From contig RPFO01000165.1 in NCBI GenBank assembly GCA_009746045.1, positions 5,814,085 through 5,878,084 of the forward strand: a stretch of 64,000 nt of DNA, read 5' to 3'. The position numbers were made by a program, and so were the translations under genes. The notes beneath the pieces are model-generated. The model made no database searches and had not been told where the DNA came from. It saw only the letters and a program-made list of their open reading frames with translations. Below, piece after piece: positions 43,601 through 61,600 of the stretch. The stretch comes from Mesostigma viride. Lineage: Eukaryota > Streptophyta > Mesostigmatophyceae > Mesostigmatales > Mesostigmataceae. Within the stretch, counting starts at the first letter, position 1; each line of letters begins with the position of its first letter.

Positions 43601-46600
43601 CGGGATTTCGGCATGTCAGCATGCGCACCGGCATGTGGCTGTGCCAAAGCAGAGCATGTGACTTTGGCCTGCACTAAGGGCGCAAAGCTAGCCCAGCATA
43701 TCCCTACAAGATAGAGGATACTGGCCTAGAGGATGCTGGCCCAGAGGATGCTGGCCCAGAGGATACTGGTCCAGAGGATGCTGGCCTACAGGACACTGGC
43801 CCAGATGATACTGGCCTAGAGGATACTGGCCTAGAGGATACTGGCCTAGAGGATGCTGGCCCAGAGGATGCTGGCCTAGAGGACACTGGCCCAGATGATA
43901 CTGGCCTAGAGGATACTGGCCTAGAGGATGCCGGCCCAGAGGATACTGGCCTTCATGGCTGTCCAAGTTTAGGATTGTAGTCAAGATTCAAGTCATGAAT
44001 ATGCCACGCTCTGTTGAGGAGTGGGGGGATGCTCGCGTGCCGAGACCCCTTTGTCTAGTCCACTGGCCAGGACATACATTTACATTTGCCTCCGTTGGGA
44101 GCTCACAGAATAAGGTCAAGTGAATACCTAACAAAGTGCGGCTGCACACAGTAGTCCAATAGCGCTTTGTGAGTCCTTCAAGCTCTTTGAGTGACCGCGG
44201 AAGGGCTTTGGGATGGGCGTACTCCTCAAATGGACAGGGCATCCTCCCGAAACATGGCCGTTGATGTGCCTAGGTGATTCTGCTTCATTGGCTGGTGGTT
44301 GACTTGAGCAGGGCCTTTTGATGGATGGGGTTATGGTGGGGCGTGGTCTGCGGGTGAGCTATTTGGAACCCGTTTGGCATTAATTGCTCCAGGTGGGAGA
44401 GGTGGCCAGGCTGTATCCGACAAGTTCGACATGCGAGCTCAGCCTGCTTGCGAGCACAGCTCAGCAGGTGGGTTGTGTCTGTTTATGGCTTCAATCCTGT
44501 CCATGCCTATGTGTTGCGATGGTCCTATTCAATACACCAATCATGTCCATTCCTGTGTGTTGCGATGGTCCTATTCAATACGCCAATCCTGTCCATGCCT
44601 GTGTGTTGCGATGGTCCTATTCAATACGCCAATCCTGTCCATGCCTGTGTGTTGCGATGGTCCTATTCAATACACCAATCCTGTCCATGCCTATGGGTTG
44701 CGATGATCCTATTTAATACACCAATCCTGTCCATGTCTATGTGTCGCGATGATGATATTCCATTCACCTCCATGCTCTTATTGGAAGAAGCTGACGATGG
44801 TTCTGTCAAGGTGGGTCAAAGCCTGGGGTTTGGTGGGATGGGATAATTCAAGTTGGGAGGAAAGACTGTTAGGGAGATGGGGGTGGAGGGGGTGGAGGGG
44901 GTGGAGGGGGTGGAGGGGGTGGCGGGGGTGGCGGGGGCTGGGGGGGGAGAAGTACAGGTGCCTCAAATCAACTAGGATTAGTTGCCACCAAAATTTCTGG
45001 ACACGCGAAAATGGTCCTTTGCGTTTGCGCATATTCTGGTTTTCTGTCTTAATGTGCGGGCGTGTTGCGACAGCCTGCTGTATGCGGACAGCTGGGATAC
45101 CGATAGACTGAATCTACGGCCCGCTGGGTTTTGTCCATTCCCTGCTGCTGATGCTGCCCCCTTAAGAAAGCAATCAAGCTTGCTGAACGCATTCTGGCAT
45201 TTTCCAGGTCAGGCCCAATACCTCTGAGAGGCCCTTCATGATCTTCTTCAAGCTGTACGACCCGGTGGAGGAGAAGCTGAGCTACGTGGGACACCTTGTT
45301 GTCGATGGACACTGGACGGTGGTGGACCTGTGGCTGGCCTTGCATCGAATGGCGGCGAATGACCACTTCCAGCCCCTGGAGCTCTACGCAGCTTCCCACT
45401 CATTGTCCGCTCCCTCTCGGTACAGGAGACTGGAGGGATCTCGGACGCTAGATAAATATGAGGTGAGGCCGTGGGAGCGCTGGGCGCTAAGGGCAGGGGT
45501 AGGCGTCGGGCGCGCGCTTCCCCTTCCAGAGTGTCATTTGGTGCTGGAGCCCGTGGTGGGGTGATCGTGATGACAGGGTTTCCCGCCCTCAGGCCTGACA
45601 GGGTGTCCTTACCACCCATGTAGGCCATCTGGATACACAATGGATGAATAGAGAAAGGAGCGAACGGATCATGATGCCTAGGACATCACGGTCTGGATGA
45701 ATAGAGAAAGGAGCGAACGGATCATGATGCCTAGGACATCACGGTCTGGATGAATAGAGAAAGGAGCGAATGGATCAATATGCCTAGGACATCACGGTTT
45801 GGCACGTATAGGTATCTAGTCGTGCTGACTCGGACAGTTTGATGGGCTGATCCACTGATCATCACGGTTTGGCACGTATAGGTATCTAGTCGTGCTGACT
45901 CGGACAGTTTGATGGGCTGATCCACTGATCAAGGCATGCCACGCGAGCAGACGCGGATCGTTCAGCTTGTCGCTGCCGGCGGGTGCTCCTGGGTGTGGTT
46001 GCATGCCTTGTCACCTGTTCCCAGGCTGCCTGGGATGTATGCTGGCTATCAGGTTGGTGACAGGTGACAGAGAGGAGGCTCGTTACTGGGCATACCCTAC
46101 ACCCTAAACCCTAAACCCTAAACCCTAGAACGCCGCGAAGAGGAGGCAGCCCCTGGATAATAGTTGTTTGGGGATTAGAGATCAGCTTGCTTTGGATAAC
46201 GGGAAACGTGGCCTATCTCTGTGAGAATCCTTGTCATTTGTCCGGTTACGACAGCTGAACCTTGACAATACAGAAGGGTTGGTTTTGACCCTAAACCCTA
46301 AACCCTAAACCCTAAACCCTAAACCCTAGCACGGGAGCCGTGGACGTGCACCAACAGGCATTCCCGTGTGCGCCATCGTCTGTTGGCGCCTACAGGCACG
46401 ATGCCGATGGCCGTGTGCTGGCGGTATCCACCATGATGGCGACAAGGCAGGAGCACGCATGGAATACTGTCGCGGAACACTGCAGGAGTGTGTACTTAAA
46501 GAATGTTCCTTTGTTCCTTGCAGACCTTTGCCGCGGATGCAGCAGGGTTTTAGTATTAGGGTTAAGTATCAGGGTTAAGTATTAAGTACTTGCATGTCAT

Positions 46601-49600
46601 GCGCATGGGCATGGCATGGAGTACTATGCTAATCTCATTAGAAAAATAATTACCCGAAAGTTACAAATAGCGTCTGCATCATGCCCCAACCATATAGTAG
46701 CAGGGTTAAGTACACTCATTATGTGGAGGCATAGACTAGTACTACGGGATTGGGTGAGCTATGCTCATTTTATCTATGACCGACCTGCTGTGCTCAGAAT
46801 GCAGCGCCGTATGGCGAAAATAGTGTAGTTTGTATGCACAATATTGTATTCTGGCACTCGTACCCTAGCCAACCCAGGTAGGGGCTGACTTGGACCAGAG
46901 GTAGCCATAAGAGTTGTGCTTCCGTTCTAGGGAAGCAGTTAATTCATTCCCCACCTTTCCGCCATGGCAAACCGGGGTAGAGCTGGGGCACAGCTGCTGT
47001 GGGATGACCCTGTAAATTCACATAGTTTGCTCACCCTAGCATACGGACGGCCGTGTGGTCGTCTGCTAGACATGTCTGTGTTATTCCCCTGTGCAGAGCT
47101 AGCGCACGTATGGTAATAAACTTCAGCTTTTGTGGTGGTGCAAAGCGAACCCGAGGGCCAGAAATGGACTAGAACAACATGTAAAGTGTACTACGGTGTT
47201 CGAATACTGAAGTGGTTTGGTTGGGGAGGAAGACAAGTCATCCCCTGCGTTCAGGTAGCCTAGTCATCCCCTGTGTTCAGGAAACCCTTGCTAAATCACC
47301 TTATCTTTGAACTTCTAGGGGGGGGGGGGATGAGAAAAGAAGTGAGAGCAACATCCTGCACGTTTGGATGCAGACGTTCTAACTGGGTGAACTGGCCGAG
47401 ACCGGAAGGCGTTGCACATAGTGGCCCCCTCAGTGTCTGGTTCTGATTGGTCGGCCATGGCCGGCATGACTTGGCATGTCTGCTTGGCTCTGGGGAATAA
47501 GGACCCTGTATTCTCCACAGCACATAGGTTGCCACAACTTGCCCATGACATGACCCCTGACGCATGCAGGCTTGAGCTTGCCCGTATCCGTGCCTGGGTT
47601 GACTGGCGAAGCCGTAGCAGCTGAAGCTAGGGGGTACGTTCGGATATGCTGAGTCGCAGACTTATCTGCTTGGTGGATTCCTTGATCGATTTAATCTTCC
47701 TTGACCACAGCTGAGGATGGGTGAAATCGTGTTTGTCCAAAAAGCACTCTCGCCCGACGTGGCCGCCACGTGTCGCTTCCCCGATGTCCCTGCCTTCATG
47801 GGCCACGCGCTCAGTCAGCGGCGCGTGCGCTTCTTCCGGCTGGGAGTCCCCACCGAGGAAGGCTTTGTGCTGACGCTGTAAGTGTGTTGGCTGGGAGACA
47901 TTGCTCGAAGCAGCCCTTTGAGAAATTAGCAACGCAGTTTGATAAATAAAGAAACAACGCAGTCTTTTGAGTCTGCAAATGAAGCCACTCTTTATCCAAC
48001 AAAACAGCCCTTTACATGCATGGTGCATGAAGCACTAAGTAAATCTAGTAGGAAAATACTGCTAATTGATTATTTAAACAGTAGCATACTATTATACAGT
48101 TTCTCAAGCAGCCCTGCCTCCCCACCTTGGAATGGGAGGTTTGGACCTAATTTTGCTCCGCTCATACAGTTGGAGGGAAGGCGGCTCTGCATAGGATCGT
48201 CGAGTGCAAGTAGGGTCATCGCATGCCAACATGGCAAACCGTAGCTGCCAGCAACCGCGCTAACGCCTTTGTGTTTGACTTGCTGTGCGGTCCATGGCAT
48301 GCATGGCCTCCCACAGATCCAAGGCAATTTTTTGTTAACTAATACAGGCTGTTGCCGAAATGATGTTTCTTTTCTATCCCTTTTCTATCCCTTTTCTGTC
48401 CCTTTTCTATCTCTTTTCTATCCCTTTTCTATCCCTTTTATATCCCTTTTCTATCTCTTTTCTATCCCTTTTATATCCCTTTTGTATTCCTTTTATATCT
48501 CTTTATATCCCTTTATATCCCTTTATATCCCTTTTATATCCCTTTTATATCCCTTTTATATCCCTTTTATATCCCTTTTATATCCCTTTTCTATATCCCT
48601 TTTCTATATAGGTGCTGAAGCTGAGGTCCATTGGAGTGCCTTCCTACCACAGAAACAAGTTTATTACAGTAAGTGTGTGCTTTAACAGTTGAGCCTAGCC
48701 ACACCCTCAAAATCATTGTTTAAGTCATTGTCAAGTTAGGCTAGTTCACCATGCTGGGGCCCAGCACATGCCCCCTTGGTCCAATCTTGTCCCCAACAGC
48801 AGCGAGGGTGGGTGGGTGGGTGGGTGGGTGGGTGGGTGGGTGGGTGGGTGGGTGGGTGGGTGGGTGGGTGGGTGGGAGCTGCAAAAAGGCCTCCCTACGT
48901 TCACCACACCACTCTAAGTAGGGTGTGAAAATGAAAATACAAAGCACATGTCTCAAGGCGCCGCGCCCCCCTCAATCAAGGGCGGGCACGGTTGCCAGTA
49001 GGCACTAGTACCGGCGCAACGCCGGTCCCCTTCTCTCAAGTCCTATGTAACAATAAGCACCTTACATGGTGTAGGTGACGTACGGTAGAGCCACGCTACA
49101 GACGGCAGATGGCCCCCTTTGAGCCCGCCGCAACACAACTATAAAATGAGCAGATAGCTCAAAAAATAGGTGCTGAAGCTAAGGTCCATTGGAGTGCCTT
49201 CCTACCAGAGAAACAAGTTTATTACAATAAGTGTGTGCAGGCTGTAACAGTTGAGCCCAGCCACACCCTCAAAAACATTGTACAAGTCATTGTCAAGTTA
49301 GGCTAGTTCACCATGCTGGGGCCCAGCACATGCCCCCTTGGTCCAATCTTGTCCCACATCTCCATCTCTGGCCACCCAGGCCGTTTCCAGCCCTGGTGGT
49401 AGGAACGCAACCACTTGGAATGCTGGGCTTTTGTTGGCATGATGATGCCCCCGTCCCGCCCCTGTGTGGCCGCTACGGTTTCCCGGCGGACGCAGGGCGG
49501 AGCCACATGCGTTCCCCTTATTAGAGGGGCGCATCCCAGTGCTGCCACTGTAGGTCTTATGCCACACCACCACCACAACGTCTCCAGCTCAGTGCTCACC

Positions 49601-52600: not shown

Positions 52601-55600
52601 AGTGACCGCTTTGAGCGTATTGGAAACGTCGACACAACTGCGTGTGGAGGAGCTAAGTGGATAGTGACCATTACGCTAGCTGTAGTGACCACTTTGAAAG
52701 CATCGCCCACGTCGATGGCACGTTCTGGAACCCGCGAATGGATGTGAGGGGCCGTGATGTGCAAAGAAACTATCTGGTCCCATGGTGCAGGATGATCTAT
52801 CAGTTGCTCTGTCAATTGGTTTCACAGTCAACGCCTAGCTAGCCATCTCGCGCTGACCTGTTGGCTTACCATGCCACAAATATGAGCCAAAGTTAAAGTG
52901 TACTAATATGAGCTTGGTTGATGCCACACAGTTTAGCATGATATTATAGCCCATGGCTGAGCTCAGCGGGGTTCAATTTCAGCTCTAGAATTTCGCAGAG
53001 AAGTATGTTGGCGCTCTGGAGGCACCTGGCAGTGAGTGGGCCCCGTCCAAGGCTGTCCTGAACAGCTCTTGTCAGGAGGGAATTTCGCGCTTGTAACCAG
53101 CTGGGTGTACAGTTATCCAGCAGCAGCGTTGAAGGGTTTGTGGCTTTTTACCAACCTTTTCTCTTCCCCTTGTCTCCACCATTTGCCCTATTCTCTCTTG
53201 TTCCATGGCTTACTTTCTTGTTCTATAAAGATATGTACTATCATACTGGTTGGTACGGTATAAAGATCTGTAATCTCATACTGGGTGGTATGATATTTTA
53301 TTGCTTCATTCACTTTACTCTCTCTTGTTCCATGTGGTCACAAGGACTTTGGGTGTCACTTCTCACGGATTCGATGCCAGCCATGCATCGCTGGTCACTT
53401 TATTTTTGTATTATTGCTGGTCACTACATTCTTGTATTGTTGCGTGCAGGTCACGGGAAAGGGAAGGTGCGAGGGCCCAGGGTGTGCGCTTCTCCCTGTC
53501 AGCCACGTGAGGAGGGATGAGGCAGGTGACAGCAACGACCTGGTGCGTATGCATCCATGTTTCAGTGCTCGATGTGGGTATCTGGGTGTCCGTGTTCTTG
53601 TCTGGTGCTCACCGCAGATAGGAGCAGCCCTTGTAAGCCCATTAGGTACACCAAGATGTACGATATTATGTATGTGTTTGTGAGACAGCCCTCGAATGTT
53701 CCACGCTGGTCAATAGGCTTGAGAGCATAACCACCAAGGATAAACAGATATCGCGTAACAAATAGTAGTACTATGATTCTTAACTACTGGGATGACGTGC
53801 ATTGAACTTAGAAGGGGTGCCACCTGGCACCCTTGCCCGCCGTGTTGAGGTCCATTGCCTCGCAAGAAGATGATAAGAGAGGCAAGCGCGCTTGGCTTGA
53901 GGCATACTGCTAGTAGAGGTATACTGCTAGCAGTAGAGGTATACTGCTATGCTTTCATAGTAGTACGTGGAATGCATTGGGTAAATGTTGTACTGGGCAT
54001 ATAGGTTACGAAAGAGTTAGCATCACGGGATCCGCTTCCTGTTGCGTTTGTGGCATCACGGGGTCCGCTTCCTGTTGCGTTTGTGGCATCACGGGATCCG
54101 CTTCCTGTTGCGTTTGTGGCATCACGGGATCCGCTTCCTGTTGCGTTTGTGGCATCACGGGATCCGCTTCCTGTTGCGTTTGTGGCATCACGGGATCCGC
54201 TTCCTGTTGCGTTTGTGGCATCACGGGATCCGCTTCCTGTTGCGTTTGTAGCATCACGGGGTCCGCTTCCTGTTGCGTTTGTGGCATCACGGGATCCGCT
54301 TCCTGTTACGTTTGTGGCATCACGGGATCCGCTTCCTGTTGCGTTTGTGGCATCACGGGGTCCGCTTCCTGTTGCGTTTGTGGCATCACGGGATCCGCTT
54401 CCTGTTGCGTTTGTGGCATCACGGGATCCGCTTCCTGTTGCGTTTGTGGCATCACGGGATCCGCTTCCTGTTGCGTTTGTGGCATCACGGGGTCCGCTTC
54501 CTGTTGCGTTTGTGGCATCACGGGGTCCGCTTCCTGTTGCGTTTGTAGCATCACGGGGTCCGCTTCCTGTTGCGTTTGTCAGCCAGGAATTATTTGAATC
54601 AGCCGGCGATACGAAGTACTCGGAGGGAACGCATGCAAGTGACGGCGATGACCACCTGGCAGCCCTCTTTTCACATAGTGTAAAGCTTACAGTCCTCCTC
54701 GCTTTCCCTACCTGACCCGCTTTTGAGCACATTTTCTGCCTGGATGGCCTTTTCTGTCTGCATCACATTTGCTGCACGGATTACTCACCATGCAGGTGAC
54801 CGCGTTCGGCCACCCCTTTATGCTGGCGATCGGCGAGCACGAGAAGCTGGCATCCGTCAAGCAGCGCGTGCAAGCCAAGCTGGGCGTGCCGGACGAGGAG
54901 TTTGCCACGTGGAAGTTTGCCATCGTGGTGGTGGACACGGCGGCGCCCCTCGATGACAACGACGAGGTGGTCCCACGCTACCAGGTACGGTGACCCTGGA
55001 TGGTCGGGTCATGATGGACAGGATGATGCAGTCTCTTGTCACCAGGTACCGCTTGATGGTCGTGTAATGCTGTTGGAGGGCTAGAGCATATGGTGCCATG
55101 TAGCTTAGGGGGCTTGTAGTCAAGGTGGCGTTACCAGCTTTGGATCCGTGGGGGTCCATGAGCCGTGTTCGCTGTATGTACGGTAGTATAGTACTAAAGT
55201 ATTCTAGATTGTAGAATTATAGTGTGGAAGTATAGTATTATAGAAGTCATCAAGGATAGTGAGTTTAGGGTGTGTATGCAAGGGTATGAGACCGGCGACA
55301 TGAACGGCGCGCAACATAGGAACAACACCTAGCACCCTATGAACCGGTCGCCAGCATAAGCTAGCAACTAACAACCAACGCAACTAAAAACGGCAAGCAA
55401 TCGGCATCTCACTTCTTGTGTATTTGTGACGGAGCTAGCATGCCAGTGGCAGATCCGTAATTCTCATCAATTTCTTTGCAAGGCACCGTAACAAGCGCAC
55501 TCCAGTCCATGCATCATGGGGTGCTTACGCCTAGTATGCTGTCAGCATGGACCTGTCTTTGCGACCGTCGGCCCTACCATCCATGAGGTGCTTACGCCTA

Positions 55601-56326
55601 GTATGCTGTCATCATGGACCTGTCTTGACGGCCTACTCTGCTTGACAGGACAGGTCGTTCCATCGCCTCAATTTTGTATACCATGATAACGTAGCCAAAA
55701 ACATAATGTACCTTAATTAAAACGTTACCTAAGAACATGACACACCTTGTAGAGAGCATTACCTAGAAACATGAAGTACCTTGTTAAAAACATTACTTGG
55801 GGAATAGACATGCGCATACCTGTTACAGCATTACATTACTTGGGGAATAGACATGCGCATACCTGTTACAGCATTTACTTGATGCAAGATGATGCCTTTT
55901 ACCTATTAGCATGTGAGGTGTTATGCAAAGGTTGCAGAATTGCAGCAACAGGGTTTTGGCAGCAGGGTAGCTTGAACCATCGTGGCGAATGGAGTAGGGC
56001 CACCCATTTGCAATTGCATGTAGCCAGTGTGTTGACCTCCCCTTTTCTCTCCCATCGACGTCACAAATGGGCCGGACGCGTGCTTTGTGCGTGGCTGGTC
56101 ACGCCAGGCACTGCGGGCAGGGAGGTGGGACGCCTGGCTGGGCATCGAGCACACGGGGGTCCCACAGGCGGAGGCATGCACGCAGAGCTGCAAAGGGGTA
56201 GCTGCGCCTCCAGAGAATTCCACAACCAGATGGTATGACGTGGCCTCCAATGATAGTGGGTTAAAAGTGCTGCCTGTGGTTCGGCAGTTATGCACTGGAA
56301 GAAGAAACAAACACACAAGCAAGCAT

Positions 56327-56357
<31 letters not shown>

Positions 56358-56380
56358 CGGGTTTGCAGGCCATGGGATGA
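16508..56380 (+). CDS. USP7: USP7/UBP12-like pseudo-deubiquitinase, 18 exons placed, 5' end missing
   Basis: USP7-family enzymes remove ubiquitin from nuclear and other substrates; order is MATH domain, USP catalytic core, five ubiquitin-like (UBL) domains. I could place 18 exons totalling about 3115 nt (about 1038 codons). All have GT donors and AG acceptors, and every junction keeps phase (phase 0 except exons 5/6 and 13/14). Exons 1-7 cover the catalytic core, 8-18 the UBL array to the C-terminal DAWLGIEH block. All three catalytic positions are changed: the Cys of TCYMNSLLQ is Arg (TRFVDALLQ, exon 1), the His of GGHYYA-IRP is Leu (GLHSALIRP, exon 6) and the Asp of W-KFDD is Tyr (WIKYYN, exon 6). 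The QHDVQEL motif is also lost (exon 2). With no stops, this is read as a pseudoenzyme rather than a decayed gene. The MATH domain was not found. Introns total about 37 kb and are full of transposons and minisatellites. Expression is untested. Confidence 0.85.
17432..17662 (+). CDS. USP7: USP7-like exon 2: catalytic core
   Basis: Acceptor ATCGATGCAG, donor AAG|GTGCGC; 77 codons, phase 0 at both ends. AVLQTPWVSIDDPPSNVAAE follows directly on exon 1 as AVY-MP does in the family. MRLLMALGWFKHQEFFKPYM replaces the usual [21 protein letters not shown], keeping GW and F but losing the QHDVQEL motif. Confidence 0.85.
18400..18594 (+). CDS. USP7: USP7-like exon 3: catalytic core
   Basis: Acceptor GTGGGGCAG, donor GGG|GTAAGG; 65 codons. 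It encodes GTTAEGAIQRLFQGK and FYVLPLDIKGCKDVYASLDK, matching family EGTIQ-LFEG and FYDLQLDVKGCKDVYASFDKY. The Cys-rich finger insert between them is altered. Confidence 0.9.
18595..21548. other. Intron 3: no other gene seen
   Basis: 2.95 kb. It holds a roughly 70-bp duplication around 19740-19880 (AGTACCAAGGCACACTA units) and an 18-bp minisatellite at 21330-21490. Frames of up to about 130 codons (for example 20433-20822, -) show no family signal. Splicing exon 3 to 4 shortens the family's loop (NKYHAEEHGLQDA) by about 13 residues. Confidence 0.6.
21330..21490. repeat. 18-bp minisatellite (TATTATTATATCCTCTTC)n
   Basis: About eight copies, 58 bp before exon 4. Because 18 is a multiple of three it reads open on both strands. 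Confidence 0.9.
21549..21647 (+). CDS. USP7: USP7-like exon 4: catalytic core
   Basis: Acceptor CCTGCCAG, donor AAG|GTGAGC; 33 codons. RVLFHDLPPVLLLQLEQFEY matches GVLFLDFPPVLQLQLKRFEYD of the family (the beta-strand block before the His box). Confidence 0.9.
22141..23120 (+). pseudogene. Unrecognised retroelement-type ORF remnant (gag-like), frameshifted
   Basis: Three overlapping frames continue each other. First, MASDNGKAPASRQESSSSLG (ATG 22181) with Ser/Asp-rich sequence to 22434. Then 22415-22915, with a charged helical stretch HLERQERFQNAWLDTRESEG. Then 22884-23120, with QRDREAQKLLAVFKACKCKA and a basic C-terminus. Acidic, Ser-rich head and helical, charged tail resemble a gag or ORF1-type protein, but no zinc knuckle or known domain is visible. 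The family is not identified. Confidence 0.35.
23930..24393. mobile_element. 464-bp foldback (MITE-like) element
   Basis: Long inverted repeat: the left arm starts AATTCAGGACGCGTTAACCC (23930) and the right arm ends GGGTTACCGCGTCCTGAATT (24393). The arms stay paired for about 190 bp (GTAACATAATGGAAAGGGAC against GTCCCTTTCCATTATGTTAC; CTGATTGGGATGGTGAA against its inverse) around an 80-bp unpaired centre near 24121-24202. No coding capacity. No clear target duplication was found. Confidence 0.85.
24770..26868 (-). mobile_element. piggyBac-type transposon copy 1, 5'-truncated
   Basis: 3' end at the palindrome AAAAGGCCTCAATTGAGGCC (starting 24770). The coding sequence runs on the - strand and homology to the other copies stops at about 26868, within the transposase N-terminus, where a GC-rich unknown element begins. 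The 5' terminal repeat is missing. Confidence 0.75.
25032..26640 (-). pseudogene. piggyBac-type transposase (DDE_Tnp_1_7), copy 1
   Basis: The longest open part, 26264-25032, gives about 410 residues with the DDD transposase core: VVCDESMITWLGKGMPGL (first Asp), VVIADSWLGSVKTVVALREH (second Asp) and MGVIDHHNALRQGG (third Asp). A C-terminal Cys/His-rich domain follows (CKSGCSQCEFKAWFYCVQC), like the zinc-binding tail of piggyBac transposases. Against copies 2 and 3 there is a stop near 26310 (TAC to TAA) and a frameshift near 26385, so it is inactive. The domains are assigned from motifs seen, not from a search. Confidence 0.75.
26869..27840 (-). mobile_element. Unknown element with GC-rich, partly inverted ends
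   Basis: Both ends are rich in CCGGCGCCGG and CGGCGGTCGGCGGC motifs in opposite orientation (26880-26930 and 27745-27825). On the - strand the frame 27195-26866 contains GNWRFTLIDCGTYFLCINAK and GYVNTAELHGTSLRV; a possible short intron (donor GTGAGG at 27159, acceptor CATGCAG at 27113) joins it to SVYSIQQGLQK. A second frame (27824-27276) contains DKELEYLNKYLREHYSTDKR. None of these is a family I recognise. A 53-bp repeat (TTCCTGCCGCCAGCGCC) recurs three times at 27375-27497. Confidence 0.35.
28094..28365. repeat. 82-bp tandem repeat, about 3.3 copies
   Basis: AGCATTTGGCCGGCATT recurs at 28094, 28176, 28258 and 28340. Units include CAGTTTGGTAGCGC and CTGCCGGCAGTGACGAATAC. Copies 2 and 3 are nearly identical. 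Confidence 0.9.
29161..30284 (+). mobile_element. piggyBac-type transposon copy 3, 3'-deleted (+ strand)
   Basis: 5' end CCCAGAGGCCTCAATTGAGG at 29161, with the palindrome AGGCCTCAATTGAGGCCT at 29166-29183 and a second GGCTCAATTGAAGCC nearby. Homology to copies 1 and 2 ends near 30254. Unrelated sequence then runs to the palindromic terminus at 30415, which is also the 3' end of copy 2 in the opposite orientation. Confidence 0.7.
29430..30284 (+). pseudogene. piggyBac-type transposase N-terminal half, copy 3
   Basis: The ATG at 29430 starts MESFSKNDRVSTFARNFDEP and stays open for about 270 residues: an N-terminal region, an acidic stretch (EDEEEGFSDPDDDDSDDE), and the start of the conserved transposase domain (GFPNAATSSAGAFVRF, DWTVTAPVFWQFIGVRCLMM). 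After GRFMT the frame leaves the family sequence and ends at 30284, before the first catalytic Asp. It is the best-preserved N-terminus of the three copies and shows where the protein starts. Confidence 0.7.
30415..32985 (-). mobile_element. piggyBac-type transposon copy 2, near full length
   Basis: 3' end: palindrome at 30415-30440 (AAAAAGGCC around TCAATTGA). 5' end: AGGCCTCAATGGAGGCCT-type palindrome at 32962-32979 next to CCCAGAGG, as in copy 3. Length is about 2.57 kb. Its right end abuts a degraded copia-like element at about 32986. Confidence 0.8.
30680..32722 (-). pseudogene. piggyBac-type transposase, copy 2
   Basis: On the - strand the N-terminus (MESFSKNDR at about 32720), acidic region, DDD core and Cys-rich tail can all be followed. 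Breaks: a frame change near 32270 in a G-run, a single-base loss in a C-run near 31369 (after GLKRRG), and a stop near 30806 (CATTAAAAC where copy 1 has CAGTAAAAC). Catalytic motifs VVCDESM, VVIADSWFGSV and MGVIDHH are present. Inactive as it stands, but close in sequence to copy 1, suggesting fairly recent activity of the family. Confidence 0.75.
32986..34560 (-). mobile_element. Degraded copia-like retroelement (gag to integrase), truncated
   Basis: On the - strand, in order: gag-like DVVSDSKKFIMYIEWDDELE (near 34500) and KLKDKWEDFLAAMAYVQQCL-type sequence (34430-34104); a middle region (33950-33615); an integrase HHCC-like zinc region with CRHVRKPCEQDQMFAHKPRK and WHVATPPLARGKAVGDVIHV (33625-33305); then an integrase C-terminal part with GIIERTMRAIRDKKMPSRLA and SVTNQLNAKPMSSPLG (33296-33000). 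The ERTMR-IRD-L-DSG pattern is typical of Ty1/copia integrases. Many stops and frameshifts; RT and LTRs are absent. Copy 2 of piggyBac abuts its broken end. Another integrase-bearing element is possible. Confidence 0.5.
34615..34724 (+). CDS. USP7: USP7-like exon 5: catalytic core
   Basis: Acceptor TTCGCTAG, donor CACAG|GTATGG; it ends in phase 2. IVNEYEISLELDLDVDGRKY and DKDVRNLYELH match family INDRYEFPLQLDLDREDGKY and D-SVRNLYTLHS. Confidence 0.9.
35020..35280. repeat. 90-bp tandem repeat, three copies
   Basis: AGAAAGTAACC or AGAGAGTGACC recurs at 35021, 35111 and 35201, each followed by CCCTACTCTCC and GACCATCAAT. Lies in intron 5. Confidence 0.85.
35499..35646 (+). CDS. USP7: USP7-like exon 6: His-box region, catalytic His and Asp replaced
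   Basis: Acceptor GGTGCCAG, donor ACG|GTGAGC. The first base completes the Ser codon begun in exon 5. VICNQGKGLLGLHSALIRP aligns without gaps to VLVHSGGVHGGHYYAFIRP: the catalytic His is Leu (a His follows one residue later), and SRWIKYYNGLTKE aligns to DQWYKFDDERVTKE, with the triad Asp as Tyr and the next as Asn. Confidence 0.9.
35647..36887. other. Intron 6: no other gene seen
   Basis: 1.24 kb without a recognisable element. A short imperfect repeat (GTGCGCGTGTTATCTCGACCA) recurs three times at 36378-36455. Intron 5 (34725-35498) holds a 90-bp tandem repeat listed separately. Confidence 0.6.
36888..37031 (+). CDS. USP7: USP7-like exon 7: end of catalytic core
   Basis: Acceptor TCCCCCCAG, donor CTG|GTAACT; 48 codons. 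LIRPFALVYVRKSDKERVMC matches family SNAYMLVYIRESDKDKIIC, the last strand of the USP fold. Confidence 0.85.
37032..38289. other. Intron 7: G-rich tract, no gene
   Basis: It contains a (CCCA)n-type tract near 37185-37210 and the G-rich tract 37334-37440. No further coding sequence recognised. Confidence 0.6.
37334..37440 (+). repeat. G-quadruplex-prone G-rich tract with (GGC)n
   Basis: A run of about 19 G, then GGGGGCGGGAGC-type units, then (GGC)n. Many G3+ runs with short loops on the sense strand of an intron. Confidence 0.85.
38290..38364 (+). CDS. USP7: USP7-like exon 8: linker to the first UBL domain
   Basis: Acceptor GCTGCACAG, donor AGG|GTGAGT; 25 codons, phase 0. SRGQRSQNAPVDTDMDLAPR then TVTVR occupies the place of the family's charged linker and the strand AHLFTTIKV. 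Sequence similarity alone is weak; splice phase and position support it. Confidence 0.65.
38791..38996. mobile_element. 206-bp foldback MITE
   Basis: Almost perfect palindrome: AGTTAGGTTAAATAGTGCCG at the left, CGGCACTATTTAACCTAACT at the right, paired nearly throughout (AAATCGGTCC against GGACCGATTT) with a few-base centre near 38893. With the adjacent G/C pair the ends read GAGTTAGG and CCTAACTC, flanked by TAG on both sides, a possible 3-bp target duplication of PIF/Harbinger type. Confidence 0.85.
39005..41870. mobile_element. Non-autonomous element with long inverted repeats and CCAACAAGG motifs
   Basis: 39012-39135 (GGTTAGTTTTAGGCCTAGTT through AAAAGATCTTCCTCCTCCTC to GAATTTGACA) is inverted at 41657-41793. 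A second paired block, CGCTTCCGAGCCTGAGGCTA near 39205, is inverted near 41826. The spacing differs between sides, so one end is rearranged. CCAACAAGG-type motifs recur at 39540-39640 and 41800-41860. No transposase seen. Confidence 0.6.
40525..40640. repeat. 32-bp tandem repeat, three to four copies
   Basis: GACTAGCCCCGTAGTTGGCT starts at 40525, 40557 (GACTGG variant) and 40589, with a decayed fourth unit. Confidence 0.85.
42320..42445 (+). CDS. USP7: USP7-like exon 9: UBL1
   Basis: Acceptor CGACCGCAG, donor CGG|GTGTGT; 42 codons. HLDLVDFNQVKAFEVDRDLP then FSQFQER matches family YFDLVDHEKVRSFRIQKQTPF-QFKEEV. Confidence 0.9.
43145..43309 (+). CDS. USP7: USP7-like exon 10: UBL1
   Basis: Acceptor CACGTGCCAG, donor CCG|GTGAGT; 55 codons. 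LAGEFGVPVERQDWWLWEYL continues exon 9 exactly as EVAKEFGVPVQLQRFWIWAK does in the family. Confidence 0.9.
43310..44392. other. Intron 10: 15-bp minisatellite, no gene
   Basis: Non-coding apart from the minisatellite at 43709-43955, which reads open on both strands because of its 15-bp period. Confidence 0.6.
43709..43955. repeat. 15-bp minisatellite (GGCCTAGAGGATACT)n
   Basis: About 16 units alternating GGCCTAGAGGATACT and GGCCCAGAGGATGCT, with a higher-order pattern. Confidence 0.9.
44393..44467 (+). CDS. USP7: USP7-like exon 11: UBL1/UBL2 junction
   Basis: Acceptor TTGCTCCAG, donor CAG|GTGGGT; 25 codons. VGEVARLYPTSSTCELSLLA matches family VGQIREASNKANNAELKLFLE. Confidence 0.8.
44498..44750. 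repeat. 46-bp tandem repeat, about 5.5 copies
   Basis: TGTCCATGCCTGTGTGTTGC recurs at 44498, 44544, 44590, 44636, 44682 and 44728 (intron 11). The array is nearly identical between units. Confidence 0.95.
44880..44948. repeat. GGTGGAGGGGGT-type repeat
   Basis: Purine-rich G tract of 12-bp units in intron 11; potentially G-quadruplex-forming on the sense strand. Confidence 0.85.
45208..45462 (+). CDS. USP7: USP7-like exon 12: UBL2
   Basis: Acceptor TTTTCCAG, donor GAG|GTGAGG; 85 codons. FMIFFKLYDPVEEKLSYVGH and VVDLWLALHRMA match family ILLFFKLYDPE---LRYVGRL and DI--QLNKMAGF. The EEIKFEPCVMCE block after it is replaced by a Ser/Arg-rich sequence of similar length. Confidence 0.95.
45642..45926. 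repeat. 53-bp (three copies) then 67-bp (two copies) tandem repeats
   Basis: GGATGAATAGAGAAAGGAGC begins at 45642, 45695 and 45748. ATCACGGTTTGGCACGTATA begins near 45793 and 45860. The two arrays share the ATCACGG boundary. Confidence 0.9.
46099..46127. repeat. Interstitial telomeric repeat (CCCTAAA)4
   Basis: Four units of the plant-type telomere sequence, C-rich on the + strand. Confidence 0.9.
46288..46328. repeat. Interstitial telomeric repeat (CCCTAAA)6
   Basis: Six units, same orientation as the array 160 bp upstream. The 160 bp between them is unique sequence. Confidence 0.9.
47711..47877 (+). CDS. USP7: USP7-like exon 13: UBL2/UBL3
   Basis: Acceptor TTGACCACAG, donor GCT|GTAAGT; it ends in phase 2. 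LRMGEIVFVQKALSP and FPDVPAFMGHALSQRRVRFF match family IEDGDIICYQKPLS and YPDVPSFLEYVQNRELVRFR. Confidence 0.9.
48368..48608. repeat. (TATCCCTTTTC)n minisatellite, first block
   Basis: 10-11-bp units of TATCCCTTTTC or TATCCCTTTTA, about 22 copies. Confidence 0.9.
48607..50598. repeat. Tandemly duplicated module of unequal length
   Basis: Copy 1 (48607-49166) and copy 2 (49167-50598) share their left part (GGTGCTGAAGCT to TTGTCCC, 48611-48793 and 49169-49354) and right part (GAGCTGCAAAAAGG to GATAGCTCAA, about 48887-49159 and 50308-50592). In between, copy 1 has only a (GGGT)n tract (48806-48876) while copy 2 has about 950 bp of other sequence (49355-50306). Confidence 0.8.
48806..48876. repeat. 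(GGGT)n tract
   Basis: About 17 GGGT units, G-quadruplex-prone on the + strand. Confidence 0.95.
50599..50952. repeat. (TATCCCTTTTC)n minisatellite, second block
   Basis: About 30 units of the same repeat as 48368-48608. The two blocks bracket the duplicated module. It ends 50 bp before exon 14. Confidence 0.9.
51002..51449 (+). CDS. USP7: USP7-like exon 14: UBL3/UBL4
   Basis: Acceptor CCGCACGCAG, donor GAG|GTGAGC. The first base completes a Leu codon from exon 13. SKTDTYDQVACRVL, LCCRPAEPSNIWLTAHDARA and EEAILYYEVVDP match family SKLHTYDDVVERVA, D-SKLRLTSHN and SDILYYEVLDIPL. About 149 codons; an acidic insert (residues coded near 51225-51320) replaces the family's SDMLVHYNQ region. Confidence 0.95.
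51755..51958. repeat. 10-bp minisatellite (CATTGTTTCG)n
   Basis: About 20 units, a few with TC or TG variants, in intron 14. Confidence 0.95.
52018..52292. repeat. 44-bp tandem repeat, six copies
   Basis: ACCTTTGGGCATGGATGG recurs at 52031, 52075, 52119, 52163, 52207 and 52251, ending 67 bp before exon 15. Confidence 0.95.
52360..52560 (+). CDS. USP7: USP7-like exon 15: UBL4
   Basis: Acceptor CGGCCACAG, donor GAG|GTGAGG; 67 codons. FRVQLPLGSTVADVLKLV and INDHRWNLRLEE match family IRLPKQSTVGDVINEL and INDQYWTLRAEE. Confidence 0.95.
53450..53542 (+). CDS. USP7: USP7-like exon 16: UBL4/UBL5 junction
   Basis: Acceptor TGCGTGCAG, donor CTG|GTGCGT; 31 codons. GPGCALLPVSHVRRDEAGDS lies where the family has GPNDRLIHVYHFTKEAGQN. 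Moderate similarity, correct phase and position. Confidence 0.75.
54022..54582. repeat. 33-bp minisatellite, 17 copies
   Basis: ATCACGGGATCCGCTTCCTG plus TTGCGTTTGTGGC, repeated 17 times (54022 to 54550 at 33-bp steps) in intron 16. The period is a multiple of three, so several frames stay open on both strands (ITGSASCCVCG on +, NATGSGSRDAT on -). Variation is mostly A/G in GGGATCC or GGGGTCC. Confidence 0.95.
54796..54984 (+). CDS. USP7: USP7-like exon 17: UBL5
   Basis: Acceptor CACCATGCAG, donor CAG|GTACGG; 63 codons. VTAFGHPFMLAIGEHEKLAS and LGVPDEEFATWKFAIV match family VQNFGEPFFLVIHEGETL and LHVPDEDFAKWKFASF. One of the best conserved exons. Confidence 0.95.
54985..56107. other. Intron 17: no other gene seen
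   Basis: 1.1 kb. Two short duplications: CATGAGGTGCTTACGCCTAG-type (55515-55625) and TTACTTGGGGAATAGACATG (55793-55870). No coding sequence recognised. Confidence 0.6.
56108..56380 (+). CDS. USP7: USP7-like exon 18: C-terminus
   Basis: Acceptor TCACGCCAG, phase 0. ALRAGRWDAWLGIEHTGVPQ matches family RRDVYGAWEQYLGLEHIDNAP. The frame continues to TGA at 56378-56380. The last 40 residues come partly from an (ACGC)n(AC)n microsatellite (HARTHARTHTHT), so an unseen intron or earlier end is possible. The usual basic C-terminus is not visible. Confidence 0.75.
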
Positions 56381-56883
56381 TCCTTGATGTATTCGCTGGC
56401 AGTATTTGGATGCTGGGACTTGATGCCAGCCACCGGGGCATGCTGGCTCGCCCTAGCTACCTGTTCTGATGCCTGCGGCCTGCCCTTCACTTCCTCTGTT
56501 TTCTTTGTTGCAATGACTGTCTTTGTTGCCATTACTGTGGGAAAGTTGCGGGCAATTTTTTTTTGTTCCTGACAGAGTAAGTGTCCGCAGCACACCTGCA
56601 GCCACAGCTGCGTGATGATGGACATGCTAAAGACTGAGCTTTTATGTAACTTGTATTGCTCGCTAGCGCAGTAAGAGGAAGGCGGCCTTCGCTAGGGTCT
56701 GTTCGTGCTACTATTCTTCTCTTGCTATTACTTCCCTTGCCAAGCGCTACATTTCTCGACTTTTTTTTAGCTGATTCCTTGCTGCCTCTAATTTAGTTTA
56801 TTTGACTCGCATGATTCTGTTCTCTTCGGTTGCTGGCTCTCTTCTTTGTCTATTTGTTCTCTTGTCTTCATTGCTCCTTTATA
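56381..56883. other. Intergenic region between USP7-like and kinase-HECT-RZ genes
   Basis: About 500 bp for the 3' end of one gene and the promoter of the next. The final 120 bp are pyrimidine-rich (TTCTCTTGTC-type). No TATA box stands out. Confidence 0.5.
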
Positions 56884-59800
56884 ATGTCTGCCCGGGCGAA
56901 TGCCTGGCCACCCATCAGGTCGCCCCATGATCATCGATGGGGACACGAGCGTGAGGGCCAAGAAGGCAAGCGCGTTTCGACCTGCGCCATCTGCAAACGG
57001 GAGCGCAGGACGTTGAAGGGACTCGACTGGAAACGCGAGCTCTTCTCGCCCACAGTCGCCGAGTCGCCGCAGCTGCCCGCGCAAGACGCCTGCGCGGAGC
57101 TCCAGCGCGCCTTGTCTCTCCGCCCCGTTGACACCTGGCAGCTGGCAGGGGTCACCCAGCGTGATGGCCGTGTCCTGTGGGACACGTTGCTACAGATGCC
57201 AGCATTATGCACGGACATCACCGCCGCCGACGAGGAGGGGCGCCGGCTGTCGTCCGTGTGCCAGCAGAAGGAAGCCGCGCTGATGGAGGCCATCGTGGCC
57301 GCGCGTGCAAGCCCCCTGGATGACGCGGCGCTATCTGCCAGGGACCGGGCGCTGGCGGACCAGGTGGCGGCGCTCCAGCAGCTGGAGGAGGCCTACGAGA
57401 GAAAGGCGGCGCTGTCCGCGGAGAGGGCGGCGCAGAAGGAGAGGTTGGAAGCTGTTTCGGAGACCTCGGCGGTGGCCATGGATGTGGGGGGGAATTCTGT
57501 CGGGGGAGAAGGGAGTCTTTCTGTCCATCGGCCACATGAGCAACGAGAGCCAGAGGAGGTTGCCGGGTCGAGGGACCACATGAGCGGCATCATCGATGGT
57601 ATTATGAGTGAAGCACTCAATGGCAGGAGTCACCCTCTGGCCGCCCTCACCCTCTCTACTGAGGCCGCTCCCGCCCCTTCTAGTGTGGCCGAGGATACTG
57701 ATGGGCCCCCAGAACGGATGGCCCTGGGTGCACAACAGAAGCAACGCCCGGTGGTGGGCGCGATGGCAGGAGCATCAGGCAGGGGAAGTTCCAGCGGTGG
57801 CGCGGCGGGTGATCCCACGGGCAGGGCGCACGGGGCTGACACGGGCAGGGTCCGTAAGGCCTTTGCCTTGGCGGGTAGCGCGATCCGCGAATTCAACAAC
57901 GAGATGTATCCTGCGGCGCAAGCCACCAAGGCGGCGATGGAACAGCTAGCACAGTGCCTGGTCCGGGAGCGCGCGGTGGCCGAGAGGCTCCGCGAGCGGC
58001 TGGATCGGGCGCACCAGGTGGCGGGGGATGCGATGGGTGACGCGATGAGGAGCCTTGAGGACGCGACACCTGGCGAGGACGCGGAGCAGGCGCGCGTGCT
58101 GCGGGCGCTCGTGCAGCAGAAGAGGCAGCAGGTGGCGGACGCCATCGCCGCGCGCAAGGGCCTCCAGCCGACCGAGGTGCGCATGGGCATGCTGCAGCGC
58201 GACCTGCTGGAGGTGCGCAAGAAGATGGCGCTGGCGGAGGCACACCTGAAGATCGCTGAGATGTCCGATAGCGAGAGGGAGGCGGCCAATCAGAGGGTAG
58301 AGCTGGGGTCGCTGGAGGAGAAGCAGAGGGCGATCGTGGCAGCTTTGAACCGGCTGACAGCAGAAGGCCAGGAGTCGGCGAGGAGACTTGCGCACTTTTA
58401 CCCGGAGGCATCCGCACTGCCCGAGCGTGCCAGCCAGTTGAGCAAGGCACTCCCAGGGTCTAGCTCTCAAGGCAAGGCGCTTCCTGCGGGCGGCGGCGAG
58501 GGTGGCGATGACGTCATCGACCCTGACTGGTCCCTGTCGAGGTTCCGCAACATCGGGCGGCCGCTGGGCAACTCCAGGGTGCGCCTCGTGGAGGACGCGC
58601 AGGGGACCCCCTGGGTGATCAAGGAGCTGTGCCACGAGAGGGAGCTGAGGAGGGAAGGCGGGCGGCTGCAGGCGCTGCGGCACCCGCTGGTGATTCGGCT
58701 GGAACGGATCTTTTTCGACAGCGGTGTGGCGTACCTGCAGATGCCCTACTGCAAGAATGGAAGCCTGCGCGCCTGGTTCGAGCGCATCAAAGGCAGGGCG
58801 AGGGAGGGGCAGCCCCTTGGCCTGGAGGAACGCCAGCAGGTGTGGGTGACCATGCGGCAGGTCTTCCAGGCGGTCGCCTTCATCCACCGCAAGGGCGTGG
58901 TCCACCGGGACCTGAAACCAGAGAACATTCTTCTGCAGGACGATGGCCAGATCGCCCTCTGTGACTTTGGCGTCAGCCATGACGTCAGCAGGACCTTCCA
59001 GACCACCCTGGCCACCCAGCTTGGAGGCTTCACCACGGCCTACGCCGCCCCAGAGGTGCTCACCAACCAGCCGTCGGCCAAGCAGTGGCCCTTTGCGCAG
59101 GACATGTGGTCCCTGGGCGTGATGCTGCTGGAGATCCTGACAGGGTTCCTGCCCCACTGGAACGCCGTCGCCGGGCGCCTGGAGGACGCCCAGGGCGAGG
59201 CGGTGGCCATCGATGCCGGCTTGGCAGGCGGCCAATCCCAGGGTGACCCCTGGACGACAGCGTTGCGCCAGCTGGCGTCTTCCCTCCTCCAGGTGGACCC
59301 TGCAGGGCGCCCCACTTCTGAGGACGCCCTAAGCGACCCGCACGGTTTCCTGGCGCGGGACCTGACGCTGGTGGAGATGGATCAGCAGCGGCGCATGCAC
59401 GCGCTCAGCAGCTTTCTGGAGAGCCTGCGACGCTGCCCCGCACGTGCAGGGCGTGCGCATGTCCTGCAGGTGGCCGACCTAGACAACCGGCCGCAGCTGG
59501 TGCAGCAACTGCTGGAGGCGTTTCAAGCCGATGGGCTTGATATGCGCATGGTTTTTTCGGTGGAGTGTGGCGGCATAAGGGTCCCCTTGGCTGAGGTGCT
59601 GGACCGGTTCTTCCCAGCCGTGGTGCTGCCAGAGGTGGGTCTGTTCGAGCAAGGGCGGGAGGGCCGAGAGGATGTGCTTCCGGACACTCAACTGCAGGAA
59701 GGGGTGGCGTTCTTGCCTCGCAAGGCCCTGCAGGGTGGCCCGGCGAAGCAGCAGCACCTGAGGGACCTGAGGGCGGTGGGCAGGGTCCTCGCCAAGGCCG

Positions 59801-60813
59801 TCCTCGAGTTCCTGCACGTCCCTGTCAGGTTCGCGACCGCCCTCTGCTGCTTCCTGGTGGGGGACGAACAGCTGTCGCACGCCACCCCCTCGCGTTGCCT
59901 GGAGCTGATGGCGGAGTTTGACCCGGTTGTGGCGGGCCAGATGCGGAGTGTGCTGGCCATCGCCCACGGCAGCGGCCAGGAGCATGGCATGATGGCATCC
60001 ATGCTGACACGGTGCGCCGCCAAGGACGATTTCGCAATCACCGACGCGAACAAGGGGGCGGTGGTCCGGCAGGCGGTCCAGCGGCGGCTGGTTGAATACC
60101 GCAGGGAGGAGCTGGGGGCTCTGCGCGAGGGTTTCCTGTCCCTGGACGACCTGATGGCAGACCACTTGAAGGTCATGACGGGCGAGGTCTTGGTCACGCT
60201 GTTTTTTGGCCAGGACTACTTGGACGTGGACAAGGCAGTCAAGGCTTTTGTGTTTCCGGATGATGCGTGGAGGGGCGCCAAGAATGGGAAATCGTTCAAG
60301 GAATGGCTGCACCGCTTTATCCGGGAGGTTTCCGAGACAGGACTGCGGCTGCTGTGCCTGCGGGCACTGGGCAGCGTGGATGGCCACCAGTCGTGCCGGG
60401 TGCTGCCAGGAGGCAAGACACGCGAGTTGCCTACGTTCGAGCTTGGGACTGGCTGCATGTATGTGCCGGAGGGGTGCCCGGATTACACCATCTTCCAGGC
60501 GAGGATGCACCGCGCGTTGCGGGCTGGGGAGTATGGCGTCCGCACCGATGCCCAGCAGGGGGAGAGGCTGGCCAGGGAGGAGATGGATGCGGTGGTGGGC
60601 GCCATGAGGGGTCAGGTGAGGGCGGGAGGGTGGTACCGCTGCCCCAACGGCCACCCCTACGCCATCGGGGACTGTGGGGGGGCCATGCAGGAGGCCAGGT
60701 GCCCCACTTGTGGGAGCGCCATCGGCGGCGGGCAGCACCGGCTTCGGGCAGACAACCAGAATGCTCTAGAGATTGATGGCGCCGCCGCACCCGCCTGGCC
60801 ACCGCAGCAGTGA
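56884..60813 (+). CDS. Protein kinase - HECT-like E3 - RZ zinc finger fusion protein
   Basis: Single exon, 1309 residues from the first ATG (56884); the frame opens 18 codons earlier only at a TTG. Order: N-terminus with CAIC (34-37); coiled-coil-prone regions about 140-190 and 335-510; kinase domain about 553-830 with IGRPLG, K580 (WVIKEL), HRDLKPEN (D676), D694 of DFG, and APEV near 722, so it looks catalytically competent; HECT-like region about 855-1235 with GLFEQ, DLRAVGRVLAKAVLEFLHVP, YLDVDKAVKAFVFPDD and LRLLCLRALGS. ELPTFELGTGCMYVP then PDYTIFQARMHRAL resembles the HECT LPTA-TCFN-L-P-Y-S box, with Cys1191 the likely acceptor. The C-terminal RZ finger, residues 1250-1286, has C1253, H1257, C1264, C1273, C1276 and H1285 in the WYRCPNGHPY and CPTCGSAIGGGQH motifs of RNF213/ZNFX1. 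A ubiquitin ligase controlled by its own kinase is inferred. HECT assignment rests on motifs. Confidence 0.88.
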   Translation: MSARANAWPPIRSPHDHRWGHEREGQEGKRVSTCAICKRERRTLKGLDWKRELFSPTVAESPQLPAQDACAELQRALSLRPVDTWQLAGVTQRDGRVLWDTLLQMPALCTDITAADEEGRRLSSVCQQKEAALMEAIVAARASPLDDAALSARDRALADQVAALQQLEEAYERKAALSAERAAQKERLEAVSETSAVAMDVGGNSVGGEGSLSVHRPHEQREPEEVAGSRDHMSGIIDGIMSEALNGRSHPLAALTLSTEAAPAPSSVAEDTDGPPERMALGAQQKQRPVVGAMAGASGRGSSSGGAAGDPTGRAHGADTGRVRKAFALAGSAIREFNNEMYPAAQATKAAMEQLAQCLVRERAVAERLRERLDRAHQVAGDAMGDAMRSLEDATPGEDAEQARVLRALVQQKRQQVADAIAARKGLQPTEVRMGMLQRDLLEVRKKMALAEAHLKIAEMSDSEREAANQRVELGSLEEKQRAIVAALNRLTAEGQESARRLAHFYPEASALPERASQLSKALPGSSSQGKALPAGGGEGGDDVIDPDWSLSRFRNIGRPLGNSRVRLVEDAQGTPWVIKELCHERELRREGGRLQALRHPLVIRLERIFFDSGVAYLQMPYCKNGSLRAWFERIKGRAREGQPLGLEERQQVWVTMRQVFQAVAFIHRKGVVHRDLKPENILLQDDGQIALCDFGVSHDVSRTFQTTLATQLGGFTTAYAAPEVLTNQPSAKQWPFAQDMWSLGVMLLEILTGFLPHWNAVAGRLEDAQGEAVAIDAGLAGGQSQGDPWTTALRQLASSLLQVDPAGRPTSEDALSDPHGFLARDLTLVEMDQQRRMHALSSFLESLRRCPARAGRAHVLQVADLDNRPQLVQQLLEAFQADGLDMRMVFSVECGGIRVPLAEVLDRFFPAVVLPEVGLFEQGREGREDVLPDTQLQEGVAFLPRKALQGGPAKQQHLRDLRAVGRVLAKAVLEFLHVPVRFATALCCFLVGDEQLSHATPSRCLELMAEFDPVVAGQMRSVLAIAHGSGQEHGMMASMLTRCAAKDDFAITDANKGAVVRQAVQRRLVEYRREELGALREGFLSLDDLMADHLKVMTGEVLVTLFFGQDYLDVDKAVKAFVFPDDAWRGAKNGKSFKEWLHRFIREVSETGLRLLCLRALGSVDGHQSCRVLPGGKTRELPTFELGTGCMYVPEGCPDYTIFQARMHRALRAGEYGVRTDAQQGERLAREEMDAVVGAMRGQVRAGGWYRCPNGHPYAIGDCGGAMQEARCPTCGSAIGGGQHRLRADNQNALEIDGAAAPAWPPQQ

Positions 60814-61276
60814 TGTGTTCGCCGTTCGTGTGCCCTAGATGTTGATGGGATGGCTGCACCCGTGCCTGGCTAATTATCGCGTAGACTGCTTCACGTGGGT
60901 ACCAATAAAGGAACCTTCAGCTAGATGCATAGTTAACAACCGCAGGCTAGCTGCATAGGGCATGCACACGTGCCATCTACACGTCAAACGTGACATCGGG
61001 AGGTTGTGTTAAAGTATGCCAGCAATAGGGCCAGCTGCTGTAAATTTGTGCTCACGTGGCGCAATGATGTCCTATGAACTAATCAGTTTAATATAATTAT
61101 ATTATTAATCTAGACTTATACTTAGCATCGGAATATAGTATTGAGATATGCCAGCAAGTATGGCCGGCAGCTACAATTTCATTCAATTTACACGTAACTG
61201 CGTCACGTGAGTGTTACGTCCAGGCCTGGTTAACTTGGATTGCATGAGATTGGCCGTAACAATGTGTCTACATGAT
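60814..61276. other. 3' flank of the kinase-HECT-RZ gene
   Basis: AATAAA at 60905-60910 is a plausible polyadenylation signal. A tail-less copy of the LINE-type palindrome (CACGTAACTGCGTCACGTG) is at 61191-61209. No gene recognised. Confidence 0.5.
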
Positions 61277-61411
61277 TAGCTATTAATTAATTAATTAATT
61301 AATTAATTAATTAATTAATTAATTAATTAATTAATTAATTAATTAGACACGTGACTGTGTCACGAGCATAAGTCCTCAGTGGGAGGGGAACATGGGATGG
61401 AATGGATGGAT
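61277..61411 (-). mobile_element. LINE 3' end with 68-bp (TTAA)n tail
   Basis: About 17 TTAA units (61277-61344), then the imperfect hairpin (61348-61364) and GAGCATAAGTCCTCAGTGGG to GGAATGGATGG, nearly identical to 3876-3921. It is a very short, severely 5'-truncated - strand copy of the same LINE family. Confidence 0.75.
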
Positions 61412-61600
61412 TAGCTATTATACCCCTTTATTGGGTTGGGTACTTTTCCTACAGCTATGTTTTACTAGCATTGGTCACGTAGGAATAGAGCCGGCACCGA
61501 CCTGTGGCGCCGGCGTGTTTGGCTGAGACACCTTTTGGGCTGTACCTAGTCTAGGACTTTTTCAAATGTTCGACTATTAGTAGCCAGTCACGTGGGGTTC

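Follow-up and report, generated by a model that had tools for sequence, protein, structure and literature searches.

The subject of this analysis is a gene that joins a protein kinase to two domains of the ubiquitin system, found in a stretch of 64,000 nucleotides from Mesostigma viride (contig RPFO01000165.1, positions 5,814,085 to 5,878,084; below, the window). An uninterrupted frame runs along the + strand from 56815 to 60813, and from the ATG at 56884 it specifies 1309 codons and a stop (56884..60813), which Pfam and the paralogues divide into a variable N-terminal region, a kinase, a HECT-like region and an RZ finger. When the 1309-residue protein was scanned, the protein kinase, HECT and RZ finger families all scored above the Pfam cut-offs in this one frame, and the combination was repeated in many paralogues, which bore out what the initial annotation had read from the letters. 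Residues 1–549 matched zero Pfam families above cut-off, and the scan found no AAA, RING, helicase or NFX1-finger match in the frame.

The kinase domain covered residues 585–819 (58636..59340, + strand; Pfam E 2.6e-41), with K580 located just ahead of the match. Conservation was read from an alignment of 35 rows, consisting of the longest frames of 34 fetched paralogous loci and the frame in the window. K580, HRD and DFG were invariant in 35/35 aligned copies and the motif HRDLKPEN was present, again as initially annotated. Glu587 and Glu591 were likewise invariant (35/35) and both are candidates for the alphaC Glu, and all 35 copies thus have the residues of a eukaryotic protein kinase (VAIK Lys, HRD, DFG and an alphaC Glu at E587 or E591). 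Judged by these residues, the kinase is catalytically complete. The best solved relative, among the best 60 of 2416 matches, was a MAPKK-like protein (9gmp, E 1.3e-22).

The RZ finger and the HECT-like region

The RZ zinc finger comprised residues 1240–1292 (60601..60759, + strand) and was recognized by Pfam at E 1.7e-22 and by comparison with RNF213 at E ~4e-8, in agreement with its earlier assignment to the RNF213/ZNFX1 type. Using phmmer, residues 1249–1286 aligned without gaps to residues 4447–4484 of RNF213 chain 7oik. According to passages of PMC12075652, the zinc ligands of RNF213 in mouse numbering are C4451, H4455, C4471 and C4474, whereas C4462 is the nucleophile and H4483 the probable general base, neither of them a zinc ligand. 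All six residues stand at the stated positions of chain 7oik, and the alignment placed the ligands at C1253, H1257, C1273 and C1276 and the dyad C4462/H4483 at C1264 (60673..60675, + strand) and H1285 (60736..60738, + strand). At the HECT and RZ sites 33 of the 35 rows were readable, the other 2 being gapped there, and the four ligands and the Cys/His dyad were invariant in 33/33, so that every readable copy has the C, H, C, C ligands plus dyad that mark an RZ-type ubiquitin ligase (E3) in sequence.

The HECT-like region matched positions 10–232 of the 306 in the Pfam profile over residues 916–1155 (59629..60348, + strand) at E 3.5e-9 and 37.2 bits, compared to a cut-off of 23.9 bits, and scored 40.7 bits when the region was scanned alone; hhalign extended the similarity to about residue 1221. 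Pfam HECT matched 17/17 family members scanned at E 0.1 or better, with a best E of 5.6e-13, and the similarity is therefore not a single-copy accident. A profile of the family, searched against the PDB, found NEDD4 at E 6.4e-5. Both the GR-L-KA motif (VGRVLAKAV) and a DVD motif could be recognized; an alignment of 17 members showed the G, L, A, K and first D of these blocks to be invariant, but not the R. HECT domains sit near the C-terminus of HECT ligases, as stated in the abstract of PMC9547173; the region found here lies close to the C-terminus without reaching it, as about 90 residues, including the RZ finger, come after it.

The HECT class is defined by an active-site Cys that takes ubiquitin from the ubiquitin-conjugating enzyme (E2), as described in passages of PMC12075652. 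Two canonical HECTs fetched from the same genome, with exons joined by hand, have this Cys in an LPTxxTC block, and they were compared by hhalign to 33 family rows, of which 12 were kept by the filter. In both local and global modes (E 3.8e-4 and 4.5e-5, respectively, for this one comparison) the family sequence ELPTFELG was paired with the canonical RLPTAATC, and the catalytic Cys fell on G1188 (60445..60447, + strand). At this position the residue was E in 27 copies, G in 3, N in 2 and R in 1 (n = 33), and the active-site Cys of a HECT ligase was thus found in 0/33. The initial annotation had rightly recognized the GR-L-KA and DVD blocks, but its terminal Thr-x-Cys is not supported as an active site: C1191 (60454..60456, + strand) sits three residues past the canonical position in the hhalign comparison, and the family alignment (33 readable rows) shows Cys here ten times, Ser 20 times, Arg twice and Tyr once. 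On the alignment to G1188 and the replacement in 23/33, C1191 was rejected as the HECT active site. C1198 (60475..60477, + strand) was invariant in 33/33 and lies near the canonical site, not at it; it and C1171 were the sole invariant cysteines in residues 1160–1235. On this alignment, the HECT-like region has lost the canonical cysteine. Because the HECT site has Cys in 0/33 and C1191 is replaced in 23/33, the likely E3 centre is the RZ pair Cys1264/His1285, and our prediction is that the protein is an active E3 whose catalytic cysteine probably lies in the RZ finger, not in the HECT-like region.

A family of paralogues in the genome

Searches for the family covered 440 Mb in 2243 contigs of the source genome. 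The RZ profile gave 52 matches (73/73 candidates scored), 42 of which sit, by position, in loci with a HECT-like region as well, 41 of them recognized by the HECT-profile search and one (C113, L022) by the Pfam scan of family members. The genome thus holds at least 42 HECT-like plus RZ loci; this number excludes chance for the domain combination and rules out a single-copy oddity or an assembly fusion. The RZ finger was within a frame of at least 1131 codons in 35/42 loci and within a frame of only 110–655 codons in 7/42, so some copies are broken or partial. With the HECT profile, 66 matches were found (68/68 scored), 41 in family loci and 25 elsewhere. A search with the protein itself, which gives a lower bound since 35 of the 723 first-look candidates were scored, matched 33 loci (the window's included) in a single row from residue ~340 or earlier to at least residue 1304, a 34th in two rows and a broken 35th that reached residue 937; two rows contain stops. 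A single contig (C1107) holds 22/42 loci between 0.65 and 1.31 Mb, every one on the + strand. Just past this cluster, at 1.385–1.388 Mb, there were four further HECT-profile matches, which look like a canonical multi-exon gene.

No RZ or HECT matches were found in 14 control genomes, a weak control in which one was identified as a cyanobacterium. The host is photosynthetic, as 33 matches to the chlorophyll-binding domain were found in the genome (53/53 scored). A viral origin was rejected, with no relative of the protein among viral contigs and zero confirmed among the 46 pattern-matched stretches from the family alignment. A phage origin was rejected as well: 30 phage records matched, all at <60% identity and none covering >80% of the query. 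The similarity of the 10 listed among these 30 is confined to residues 600–826, the kinase. When the flanks of the copies were compared, close pairs had 1–2 kb in common and distant copies only an exon of USP7 type (see below) and short pieces. Retroposed or element-borne copies were set aside on this comparison of flanks; element ends were not sought. In two other loci, L046 and L047, the RZ finger differs in type and sits in a long open frame (1391 and 1355 codons, respectively); 1.5 kb of each, viewed by eye, looks RNF213-like.

Midpoint-rooted trees were built from 33 rows, omitting L016 and L021, the longest frames of which are incomplete. Two clades, A (13 rows) and B (20 rows), were separated with support 100/100, and the trees of the N-terminal part, the kinase and HECT plus RZ agreed. 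At position 1191, Cys stood in 10/13 A rows and Ser in 20/20 B rows. Mean identity between A and B was 0.22 in the N-terminus, 0.25 in the pre-kinase region, 0.54 in the kinase, 0.43 in the HECT-like region and 0.74 in the RZ finger. The ratio of nonsynonymous to synonymous differences per site (pN/pS), pooled over 17/22 C1107 loci, was 0.50, 0.31, 0.22, 0.18 and 0.03 for the same five regions; that the RZ finger has the smallest value counts in favour of the finger as the catalytic centre. Among single pairs (n = 26), the kinase and HECT-like ratios were below 1 wherever defined, the N-terminal ratio exceeded 1 in two close pairs (L018/L019, 2.10; L031/L037, 1.95) and the RZ ratio was as high as 0.83 in one pair, L018/L019. 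The family is mostly under purifying selection, and because the pooled and pairwise ratios are mostly below 1, the gene is largely preserved as a protein. When the window was compared with L010, the synonymous distance was 0.61–0.69 across the N-terminal half (0.69 in the N-terminus), but fell to 0.04 for the kinase and to 0.14 for the HECT-like region, a drop suggestive of gene conversion in the conserved 3′ part.

Gene limits and neighbouring features

The single protein of the initial annotation stands as a 1309-codon frame, but that frame may be only the last (3′ terminal) exon of a larger gene. An apparent YAG splice acceptor opens the large exon in many of 25 copies displayed (by eye, uncounted), and L010, L011 and L012 have no ATG ahead of the conserved N-terminus; in the window and L009 the YAG acceptor was not visible by eye and an ATG is available. 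Some 1.9 kb upstream of the frame, Pfam recognized an exon for the last USP7-type ubiquitin-like domain (USP7_C2; 54796..54984, + strand) with an AG acceptor and a GT donor, and the exon end CAG followed by GT was conserved in all 10 copies in which this end was read. Of the 17 USP7_C2 matches in the genome (22/22 candidates scored), six fell into three places where the domain is fuller; the other eleven stood singly, one each upstream of the window's copy, L009–L016, L020 and L021 (11/35 copies); the same search found no match near the other 24 copies. Over 8/11 copies the pooled pN/pS of this exon was 0.53, a weaker constraint than on the kinase, HECT-like region and RZ finger. Between it and the frame, which begins about 0.5 kb further on, lies a probable terminal exon of USP7 type that ends at a stop of its own (56108..56380, + strand) and was similar in 11/11 copies.

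Because this terminal exon with its stop precedes the frame in 11/11 copies, we take the USP7-type exons as the tail of a neighbouring, co-duplicated gene, not a proven part of the kinase–HECT–RZ protein. A larger gene, in which they are spliced to the kinase–HECT–RZ exon to give a protein with deubiquitinase-type, kinase and E3-type parts, would be compatible with the other readings of the protein and would account for the recurrent upstream exon with its conserved end, the apparent acceptors and the copies lacking an ATG, but we regard it as very unlikely. The tail has its own terminal exon, 24 copies have no nearby USP7_C2 match, and the ubiquitin-like exon ends in phase 0 while the clade-A acceptor is in phase 2 (by eye), so that a direct join would be out of frame; this mismatch and the intervening stop make a direct in-frame join unlikely. 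Nor was a USP cysteine-box motif found in the window with the pattern used, which might overlook a box interrupted by an intron. An early reading of the beginning of the large exon as a USP7 tail in its own right was dropped after the separate terminal exon was found. In Pfam scans of the three + frames of 35.1–45.1 and 25.2–35.2 kb, 0 families, and thus no upstream USP7 or other exons, were detected. Additional exons resembling those for USP7 C-terminal ubiquitin-like domains lie at 45211–45387 and 47708–47881 (+ strand), the latter at E 0.044 only.

Downstream, a candidate poly(A) signal, AATAAA, is located about 90 bases past the stop (60904..60909, + strand), and AATAAA occurs within 600 bases downstream in just 7/35 copies. 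A piece of about 100 bases 3′ of the frame (~61323–61418) turns up again, in one orientation or the other, downstream of L011, L014, L015, L016, L021 and L041 and is perhaps a dispersed repeat. Elsewhere the window holds two frames that match a piggyBac-type transposase domain (DDE_Tnp_1_7) at 25032–26306 (− strand, E 1.8e-24) and 31318–32502 (− strand, E 2.4e-25), a nucleotide-sugar transporter in a single open frame at 1090–2277 (+ strand, E 9.9e-24), interior telomere-like ACCCTAA repeats at 46094–46127, 46288–46328 and 54020–54579, and many minisatellites, for example a 33-base unit repeated 17 times.

Proposed catalytic centre and comparison with known systems

The best reading of these sequence comparisons is a lineage-specific, multi-copy E3 family that would unite RZ-type transthiolation, a complete kinase and a cysteine-less HECT-like scaffold. 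A ubiquitin-carrying E2 would dock on the HECT-like region, and ubiquitin would be passed to RZ Cys1264 and from there to a substrate with the help of His1285, by analogy to the mechanism mapped in RNF213. The kinase could phosphorylate its own protein or the target, perhaps switching or marking ubiquitylation, and the variable N-terminus may supply target choice or assembly. A bolder proposal, which we put forward tentatively and consider possible, if doubtful, is a hybrid E3 class in which a HECT scaffold, having lost its own cysteine, serves as the E2 dock, an RNF213-type RZ finger within the same polypeptide has taken over catalysis and the integral kinase links phosphorylation to this step, the at least 42 loci forming an immune-ligase repertoire. 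Under this proposal, a fast-evolving N-terminus over a constrained kinase–HECT–RZ chassis would be as expected of a cell-autonomous immune ligase repertoire in an alga. Phosphorylation gating and RNA or pathogen sensing, both suggested in the initial annotation, are possible roles; the expansion, the tandem copies and the faster evolution of the N-terminus would fit sensing without demonstrating it.

Several points weigh against the transfer of catalysis to the RZ finger on a HECT scaffold. The hhalign probability was only 36–41% and the profiles were shallow, which leaves room for a shift of a few residues in the register. Searched against the PDB as a single sequence, the region matched HECT chains no better than E 0.18, the Pfam match ends before the cysteine block, and the fold rests on sequence profiles because a single-sequence structure model was poor (mean predicted local distance difference test score 40). 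The invariant C1198 could be a displaced HECT nucleophile. Since the RZ finger is conserved throughout, the invariance of its six residues is no proof of catalysis. The C4462S mutant of RNF213 retained autoubiquitination, so Ser at position 1191 does not strictly exclude function there; in RNF213 the E2 docks on the C-terminal domain, which has no demonstrated counterpart in this protein (both from passages of PMC12075652).

Two other assignments of the catalytic role were weighed. The HECT-like domain might still be catalytic through C1198, or through C1191 in part of the family, with the RZ finger as an accessory that binds substrate or ubiquitin. C1198 is invariant in 33/33, just past the LP motif near the canonical site, and C1191 is kept in 10/13 clade-A rows, but the canonical column has Cys in 0/33, C1191 is Ser in 20/20 clade-B rows, the equally invariant C1171 shows that an invariant Cys in that lobe need not be catalytic, and the RZ dyad is complete. 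We find this explanation unlikely. Similarly improbable, in our judgement, is a pseudo-ligase whose only enzyme is the kinase and whose HECT-like and RZ parts merely bind ubiquitin, E2s or metal for targeting: the kinase residues are invariant in 35/35 and the HECT cysteine is gone, as such a protein would have it, but the Cys/His dyad of the RZ finger, neither residue of which is a zinc ligand in RNF213, is invariant over both clades (33/33).

If RZ-centred catalysis is correct, RZ chemistry would be modular and attachable to a HECT scaffold, not confined to RNF213-type proteins, and one E3 mechanism would have replaced another within a single chain. RNF213 is a giant protein, and its RZ domain had no clear density in the cryo-electron microscopy maps described in passages of PMC12075652; a natural relative of about 1300 residues with a candidate E2-docking domain would make this chemistry directly testable, and a large family with a variable N-terminus raises the question of RZ ligases in cell-autonomous defence outside animals. 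In the open-licence literature searched, a kinase–HECT–RZ protein was not the subject of any title or abstract among those listed.

The RZ mechanism itself is already known from RNF213, and the similarity to HECT is real, but membership among the HECT ligases fails on the catalytic Cys. Compared to other protein kinases, the kinase shares a CAMK/STE-like similarity and complete catalytic residues but is joined here to ubiquitin-system domains. The profile similarity to HECT E3s (NEDD4, UBR5 and HUWE1) is significant and falls chiefly within the N-lobe portion; in contrast, the family lacks the canonical catalytic Cys and has an RZ finger after the HECT-like region. ZNFX1 shares the RZ finger with its Cys/His dyad (passages of PMC12075652) but combines it with a helicase and NFX1 fingers, neither of which has a match in this frame. 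RNF213 has the same zinc ligands and dyad in a giant protein with an AAA core and a RING, whereas the Mesostigma protein, with AAA and RING unmatched, carries a kinase and a HECT-like region instead within 1309 codons and belongs to a family present in dozens of copies in this one genome.

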